A stretch of 64,000 nt of DNA from Prochlorococcus sp. AG-436-C13 (GTDB lineage Bacteria; Cyanobacteriota; Cyanobacteriia; PCC-6307; Cyanobiaceae): the NCBI GenBank assembly GCA_003212695.1, contig QCPC01000002.1:62001-126000 (forward strand). The letters run 5' to 3'. The number at the start of each line of letters is the position of its first letter. Within the stretch, counting starts at the first letter, position 1. The notes under the pieces were generated by a model. That model was not told the DNA's origin. It ran no database searches and worked only from the letters and a program-made list of their open reading frames with translations. Below, piece by piece: positions 9,782 to 10,478 of the stretch. A program made the translations under genes and the position numbers.

Positions 9782-10237
9782 TTATTTGCTGCCATGCATA
9801 GCACAGGGCATCCAAAAATTTCCCATGCGATGAACCCCTCTACAACCAATCTTTTTAGCTTGTTTTTCTGCTTCTATTCTTGTGGAATAAACAATATCGT
9901 TTTTGAAATCACCATGACTTGAATGTTTTTCAGATTGATGGACCGAACCATGGTGGGCATGGCTTCTTCCGCCAGGAGTCCACTCCCAAATCCCCATAGT
10001 GGTTAAGCCTGCTGATATAACCCCCATGCCAACTACTGAGGCATTGATAACACCCATAGCTACCACACCTAAAGAAATAACCCCCATTGGAACTACCCCA
10101 ATTGTTATAACCCCCATGGGAACAATCCCTATAGAAACAAAACCTAACGGTGCAATTCCAATAGCAATTTTTTTAGGTTTGCTTCCACAATGTTGGTTTT
10201 CTTCTATTTGTTCTTTTTCTGAGTTTTGATTTGACAT
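9782..10237 (-). CDS. Glycine-spaced hydrophobic repeat protein with C-terminal DUF3721
   Basis: 151 residues. Residues about 24-83 form six decapeptides (twelve five-residue half-units) of the pattern I-S-I-G-V-V-P-M-G-V with Gly every fifth residue, suggesting a solenoid or membrane-embedded stack. A His-rich linker follows (HAHHGSVHQSEKHSSHG). The C-terminal about 40 residues match DUF3721 (EAEKQAKKIGC, then GVHRMGNFWMPCAMH), with Cys, His and Met that could bind metal. The next gene upstream, 16 bases away, encodes a stand-alone DUF3721. The fusion looks unusual; function unknown. Confidence 0.8.
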   Translation of the reverse strand: MSNQNSEKEQIEENQHCGSKPKKIAIGIAPLGFVSIGIVPMGVITIGVVPMGVISLGVVAMGVINASVVGMGVISAGLTTMGIWEWTPGGRSHAHHGSVHQSEKHSSHGDFKNDIVYSTRIEAEKQAKKIGCRGVHRMGNFWMPCAMHGSK

Positions 10238-10253
10238 GGATATTTGGCTTTAT

Positions 10254-10478
10254 TTAGTGGTTGTGATGGTTGGAACATGGCATCCATTTCTTGTCCATCT
10301 TGTGTGCACCTGAACAGCCATATTCTTTTGCAGCTTTTTCTGCAGCTGCTTTTGTATTAAAAAGTGCTTTCTTTGAGCCAGCACTTGCATGTTCTTGAAC
10401 TAATGAAAAAGTTAAAGAAATAAAAACAAAAGTCAGTAAACTCTTTACTTTTAATAGTTTGAGAAGGTTGTGATTCAA
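10254..10478 (-). CDS. Small exported DUF3721 protein, candidate metal binder
   Basis: 74 residues. An N-terminal basic-hydrophobic signal (KVKSLLTFVFISLTFSLV, cleavage probably near EHASAG) is followed by one DUF3721 domain: TKAAAEKAAKEYGC, GAHKMDKKWMPC and a terminal HHNH. The conserved pattern C-x-G-x-H-[KR]-M-x3-W-M-P-C-x2-H is shared with the downstream gene. The start is TTG at 10478. Probably periplasmic or lumenal. Metal binding is suggested by residues only. Confidence 0.78.
   Translation of the reverse strand: MNHNLLKLLKVKSLLTFVFISLTFSLVQEHASAGSKKALFNTKAAAEKAAKEYGCSGAHKMDKKWMPCSNHHNH

Follow-up and report, generated by a model that had tools for sequence, protein, structure and literature searches.

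Among described metal proteins, OprC offers a comparable set of ligands: it is a TonB-dependent outer-membrane transporter whose copper site is given as CxxxM-HxM (PMC11836926). Its combination of Cys, His-x-Met and Met is alike to that of DUF3721, the domain that concerns us here, and the likeness is one of working only, with no claim of kinship. Unlike OprC, the proteins described below have no Pfam match to a TonB-dependent barrel. CopM, an exported Met/His-rich metal binder of cyanobacteria, binds Cu(I) tightly (PMC4335983). It belongs to a different domain family (DUF305) than the DUF3721 proteins; DUF305 genes adjoin DUF3721 at two loci (L103, L179). With respect to regulation, Zur of Synechococcus WH8102 represses znuABC and adjoining uncharacterised genes, and synw0968, synw0972 and synw0973 respond to Zur (PMC9337993); in that cluster synw0968 adjoins znuB, the place that DUF3721 holds at locus L172, and the likeness is by position only. 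In Synechocystis, PetR/PetP, a pair of BlaI and BlaR1 type, controls the copper switch of photosynthesis (PMC7896320). BlaI and M56-like genes lie beside two relatives of our repeat protein (L203, L208) and resemble PetR/PetP by gene type only.

Two Pfam families meet at the locus studied here. PF12518 (DUF3721), a family without an assigned function, includes both of its proteins by score, and PF01744 (GLTT) includes one of them, a fusion protein, together with a stand-alone paralogue (L083), both of which pass its cut-off. Compared with PF01744 in general, the cyanobacterial proteins considered below carry a strict ladder of Met, His or Cys, and the fusion ends in a metal-type C-terminus. 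Our literature searches found no paper naming DUF3721, none with the phrase "GLTT repeat," and nothing usable on a hydrophobic solenoid or on pentapeptides and copper in Prochlorococcus.

A tandem gene pair and its shared domain

The window, by which we mean the whole stretch of 64,000 nucleotides from Prochlorococcus sp. AG-436-C13 that was analysed, carries two genes on the minus strand, a small gene upstream and a fusion gene 16 bp after it, flanked by groEL and fabG (labels by eye from sequence). Their features are as follows.

10254..10478, minus strand: small, putatively exported DUF3721 protein, 74 aa (ORF with TTG start; PF12518 match)
10380..10478, minus strand: predicted signal peptide of the small protein, residues 1-33, ending in A-S-A (by eye)
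10266..10361, minus strand: DUF3721 of the small protein, with C55, H59, M61, M66, C68 and H71 (Pfam, alignment)
9782..10237, minus strand: GLTT-DUF3721 fusion protein, 151 aa (ORF; PF12518 and PF01744 matches)
10169..10192, minus strand: N-terminal H-C-G-S-K-P-K-K of the fusion, residues 16-23 (alignment)
9986..10168, minus strand: hydrophobic decapeptide repeat, residues 24-84, 61 residues (Pfam GLTT, alignment, self-identity)
9914..9961, minus strand: His-rich linker, residues 93-108, six His (sequence, alignment)
9794..9889, minus strand: C-terminal DUF3721 of the fusion, with C132, H136, M138, M143, C145 and H148 (Pfam, alignment, AlphaFold)

An earlier note on this DNA had proposed two tandem DUF3721 genes at 9782-10478, one of them fused to a repeat, and we find the same arrangement: both open reading frames are present and pass the Pfam cut-offs. 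The PF12518 scores are 59.6 bits for the fusion and 56.8 for the small protein (cut-off 27), and the fusion reaches 59.5 bits with PF01744 (cut-off 21). An NCBIfam search gave nothing of note. Relatives of the fusion, at 57-72% identity to the window protein, were aligned over 56 sequences, and the profile of the fusion had no PDB sequence match at E up to 1. Both genes are under protein constraint, as nonsynonymous change lies much below synonymous change; for the fusion compared with L001, the values are 0.16 differences per nonsynonymous site vs. 0.70 per synonymous site. A phage origin or spread of the pair was rejected, with 0 matches in 50,697 phage records and no confirmed match in viral contigs.

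The 33-residue DUF3721 domain is common to both proteins, and the Cys/His/Met motif that the earlier note saw in each of them stands, with all six residues found in both. Over 189 distinct domains the motif reads C-x3-H-x-M...W-M-P-C-x2-H, and its counts are C 189/189, H 188/189, M 177/189, W 189/189 and M 186/189, followed by C 188/188 and H 173/173 for those domains where the alignment reaches these positions; the 189 domains came from a motif-seeded search, which divergent members may have escaped. In one divergent domain (L173), which lies inside a ZnuA-type operon, the two Cys are kept and the first His and the Met residues at both positions are gone. AlphaFold predicts one helix and two strands for the domain, at a pLDDT of about 81-83 in the fusion and 83-90 in the small protein. 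This predicted fold has no significant structural relative, the best matches being weak ones to Cys-stabilised alpha/beta peptides (E 1.5).

The alignment of the small protein includes 33 upstream partners taken from other loci. A lipoprotein-type signal (lipobox, by regular expression) is present in 33 of 45 small partners, and at least four His follow the DUF3721 domain in 42 of the 45. The small protein of the window has a plainer signal-peptide form and a short tail.

The hydrophobic repeat and its ladder

The fusion had been described as having Gly at every fifth residue. This is borne out at 11 of 12 period-5 positions (27, 32, 37, 42, 47, 52, 57, 62, 72, 77 and 82, residue 67 being Ser), with the refinement that the repeating unit proper is ten residues long and shows two faces in alternation (x-x-I-G / x-P-M-G), of which the Met face is the conserved one. 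Self-identity of the 61-residue core at lag 10 is 29/51 against a shuffle mean of 6.2, a value reached by 0 of 20,000 shuffles; at lag 5 it is 16/56 against 6.8, reached by 9 of 20,000. The core has a mean hydropathy of 1.86 over its 61 residues, and all 19-residue windows that start at residues 23-60 exceed 1.6. The fusion has no evident signal peptide; its hydrophobic stretch is closely flanked by K-P-K-K on the N-terminal side and by the His-rich linker on the C-terminal side. The linker is not conserved in most relatives, and H16, C17, G18 and P21 are invariant in the 56 sequences. Supplied with these 56 sequences, AlphaFold2 renders the repeat at a pLDDT of about 45, with no secondary structure and no strands. 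The compact beta-solenoid or membrane stack suggested by the earlier note is neither favoured nor disfavoured by this model. The Pentapeptide-repeat family (PF00805) gave no match to the fusion; only GLTT and DUF3721 were reported at E up to 10.

The only Met residues of the window core, at 41, 51, 61, 71 and 81, form a ladder, each being the residue before every second repeat Gly, and they are invariant in the 56 relatives. For a wider comparison, 47 repeat proteins were aligned, 34 of them below 90% identity and 19 of these 34 from outside the picocyanobacteria. In the 34 non-redundant proteins, all 169 filled cells of the five ladder columns hold Met, His or Cys (Met 147, His 17, Cys 5; one further cell is a gap), and the position preceding each intervening Gly is taken by Ile, Val, Leu, Phe, Ala or similar. 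The first repeat, outside the five columns, is an exception, with His, Leu, Thr, Arg or Ala. Left out before this count were L194_3669 and L216_1568, which are not repeats, and, by their start pattern, L200, L134 and two other L204 frames, of which L200 and L134, judged by eye, resemble true repeats. A Met that served only as a hydrophobic residue should trade with Leu or Ile, and the ladder trades only with His and Cys; on the strength of this exchange pattern, the ladder is likely to ligate metal.

Outside the picocyanobacteria, at least three His lie in the last 30 residues of 21 of 23 aligned repeat proteins, and DUF3721 was found in none of the non-picocyanobacterial genomes sampled. Judging by these alignments, the C-terminal head of the repeat is exchangeable, DUF3721 standing against a His-rich tail. 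That exchange and the strict Met/His/Cys ladder in the GLTT repeat are new. Metal-type neighbours occur at about 6 of 24 true non-picocyanobacterial loci, a raw count without a background rate. In L206/L118 the repeat gene adjoins a petJ-like cytochrome c6 gene (118 bits, below the NCBIfam cut-off of 135), DUF1775 and CopC; elsewhere it lies beside DUF411 and a multicopper oxidase in L193 (Pfam) and L195 (by eye); beside BlaI and M56-like genes in L203 and L208, the M56 match of L203 being below the Pfam cut-off; and beside a P-type ATPase and HupE in L204. This locus set leaves out G097, G235, G237 and G268, four of the 33 non-picocyanobacterial genomes with GLTT matches, and six of its 30 loci (L191 and L213-L217, from G036, G213, G016 twice, G044 and G074) were rejected as compositional GLTT matches. 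At L203:5029-5700, by the BlaI and M56-like genes, a GLTT protein has a long tail in which a hydrophobic segment and a basic end replace the His-rich tail.

Distribution and gene neighbourhoods

A sampling of 292 cyanobacterial genomes across the phylum gave DUF3721 in 36, all of them listed as the window's own family, and 14 control genomes gave none. Within that family, 55 of the 61 genomes sampled have it (29/33 of the better genomes), often in several copies, and 6 lack it. GLTT is wider, with matches in 69 of the 292 genomes against 36 for DUF3721, some of these matches being compositional. The window genome, 79% complete, holds only these two DUF3721 copies and one further GLTT gene, on another contig. 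At L083:1411-1647, on contig C5 of that genome, a stand-alone GLTT protein of 78 residues without DUF3721 is a paralogue of the fusion repeat.

Co-occurrence of the pair across genomes, which had been set as a test by the earlier note, proves to be co-conservation: two DUF3721 copies lie within 700 bp of each other on one strand in 42 of the 55 DUF3721-bearing family genomes, the remaining 13 having no close pair. In the best 80 of 351 fusion relatives, which make up our locus set, the small gene is directly upstream of the fusion at 45 loci and absent there at 35. Of these "solo" loci, 31 share a gene order between hisS-like and exonuclease-like genes (labels by eye). A stand-alone GLTT gene directly follows the fusion in L174, L180 and L176. 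At L176:4133-4579 (G114, a genome from the same genus as the window), the fusion gene is broken mid-repeat into two frames, both halves of which are conserved.

Metal genes recur around DUF3721 in picocyanobacteria, although part of the neighbour names were assigned by similarity to a few Pfam-checked neighbours. The genes znuA, znuB, znuC and zur lie near it in L030, L036, L048, L172, L175 and L181. In L172, znuB is followed by DUF3721, beside zur, znuC and znuA, and in L030, L048 and L175 the pair sits between an OprB-like porin and znuB-zur-znuC-znuA; the porin had no Pfam match and owes its label to inspection by eye. A second ZnuA-type ABC operon is followed by DUF3721 and then an ArsP_1 permease gene in L170, L173 and L099, and such an operon occurs with ArsP_1 and TIGR03943 genes in L170 and L173 and, in part, in L098 and L099. 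Other neighbours are HupE (L024, L091, L186, L187), CobW (L178, L179), MerR (L184, L185, L188) and DUF305 with MerR (L103, L179). By eye, at least one of znuB, HupE or a His-rich OprB-like porin is in the flanks of 21 of the 45 paired loci. The metal island at L170:4088-13156 has two ZnuA-type ABC operons flanking DUF3721, the ArsP_1 permease gene and a TIGR03943 gene, and also holds a 462-residue protein without a Pfam or NCBIfam match.

The tightest association is with HupE, which lies within 1 kb (about 0.5 kb) of DUF3721 in 6 of 46 testable genomes (expected 0.18, P 2e-8). ZnuA-family genes lie within 5 kb in 7 of 52 genomes (expected 0.93, P 4e-5) and within 10 kb in 14 of 52 (expected 1.7, P 7e-10); within 2 kb the figure of 2/52 is not significant (P 0.07). 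These statistics cover 61 family genomes, and their P values are optimistic because the expectation assumes uniform placement and independent genomes and ignores shared descent.

In a scan with a Zur-box consensus, no convincing 15-bp 7-1-7 site was found upstream in the window or in the 80 loci. In L048 a candidate palindrome lies in the znuA promoter, and the porin/DUF3721 promoter has none. A near-perfect inverted repeat lies at L048:3714-3732, immediately upstream of the porin gene, which is divergent to the pair. At L048:4731-5363, by the pair and znuB, a conserved protein of 210 residues with a weak DUF6364 match, below the cut-off, is a candidate regulator.

Proposed function and alternatives

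The two window genes probably encode small metal-binding proteins. From the genes, domains, conservation, pairing and neighbourhoods described above, we infer metal binding, the metals concerned, membrane placement and handover, and our main reading is that the pair may be a capture and handover unit of picocyanobacteria for transition metals (Zn/Cu), to which we give a probability of about 0.5. The small protein would be exported, with a cleavable signal in the window and as a lipoprotein in most relatives, and its DUF3721, usually with a His-rich tail, would capture, outside the cytoplasmic membrane, an ion of Zn or Cu type. The fusion would hold a second DUF3721 on its hydrophobic repeat, probably in or on a membrane, where the Met that recur at ten-residue intervals, replaced by His or Cys in relatives, are likely to be further ligands. 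Metal might thus be kept next to importers (ZnuABC, HupE) or passed to a partner. The earlier note had spoken of a unit for metal handling or sensing. Handling is indirectly supported by conservation and context, namely the near-invariant C/H/M/M/C/H set, the His-rich tails, the pairing and the nearby metal genes; for sensing nothing was seen. Counting against capture and handover, the window's own neighbours, groEL and fabG, are not metal genes, and 31 of the 35 "solo" loci lie between hisS-like and exonuclease-like genes. Further points against it are the lack of a convincing Zur box, the non-significant ZnuA figure within 2 kb, the lost ligand-type residues of L173, the 13 genomes without a close pair, the 6 family genomes without DUF3721 and the absence of a predicted structure for the repeat.

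The choice of metal divides the evidence. Zinc is argued for by the ZnuA-type and Zur neighbours; copper by the Met, by the MerR and DUF305 neighbours, and by the copper genes that adjoin the His-tailed repeat. Copper is the better match for Met ligands, whereas the neighbours in picocyanobacteria are mostly Zn or HupE genes, a discord that counts against our main reading. Both domains and the Met ladder might hold Cu(I) at the membrane in the manner of CopM, as a copper buffer with no specificity for zinc uptake, a possibility that we regard as rather unlikely. The Met-rich ligand set speaks for it, as do the DUF305 (CopM-family) and MerR genes of L103 and L179, the petJ-like, DUF1775 and CopC genes of L206/L118, DUF411 and the multicopper oxidase of L193, the BlaI and M56-like genes of L203 and L208, and the CxxxM-HxM site through which OprC binds copper (PMC11836926). 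However, picocyanobacterial neighbours are more often ZnuABC, Zur and HupE, and the copper neighbours, which are raw counts without a background rate, mostly belong to proteins without DUF3721. HupE, annotated for nickel or cobalt, argues for these two metals, and its position within about 0.5 kb in 6/46 genomes, together with CobW in L178 and L179, would suit a delivery partner of HupE and CobW-type chaperones to which zinc proximity is incidental. This we consider very improbable, as ZnuA-type operons include DUF3721 as a likely co-transcribed gene (L170, L172, L173).

The residues might also have nothing to do with metal: the two Cys would then form a disulfide, the His and Met would be structural, and the repeat would be a plain membrane or assembly scaffold. 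Disulfides are common in exported proteins, and the helix-strand-strand fold has its weak, non-significant matches among Cys-stabilised alpha/beta peptides (best E 1.5). It would be left unexplained why both His and both Met are conserved, why the tails of 42 of 45 small proteins have at least four His and why the ladder exchanges only among Met, His and Cys, and we hold this alternative to be improbable. Beyond capture and handover, the cyanobacterial GLTT repeat may represent a new metalloprotein scaffold, in which the Met/His/Cys residues of a membrane-lodged hydrophobic repeat offer a metal ladder or conduit at ten-residue spacing; the repeat would carry an exchangeable metal-capture head, DUF3721 in picocyanobacteria and a His-rich tail in other cyanobacteria; we put this forward tentatively, as somewhat unlikely.

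Implications for picocyanobacteria

Zinc, copper, cobalt and nickel are in short supply in ocean regions whose photosynthesis is dominated by picocyanobacteria, and there is only a partial picture of the way in which organisms with such small genomes take up and distribute them. No function is known for DUF3721 in spite of its spread through the family. With the ladder and the motif, the residues and metals that could be tested come down to short lists.
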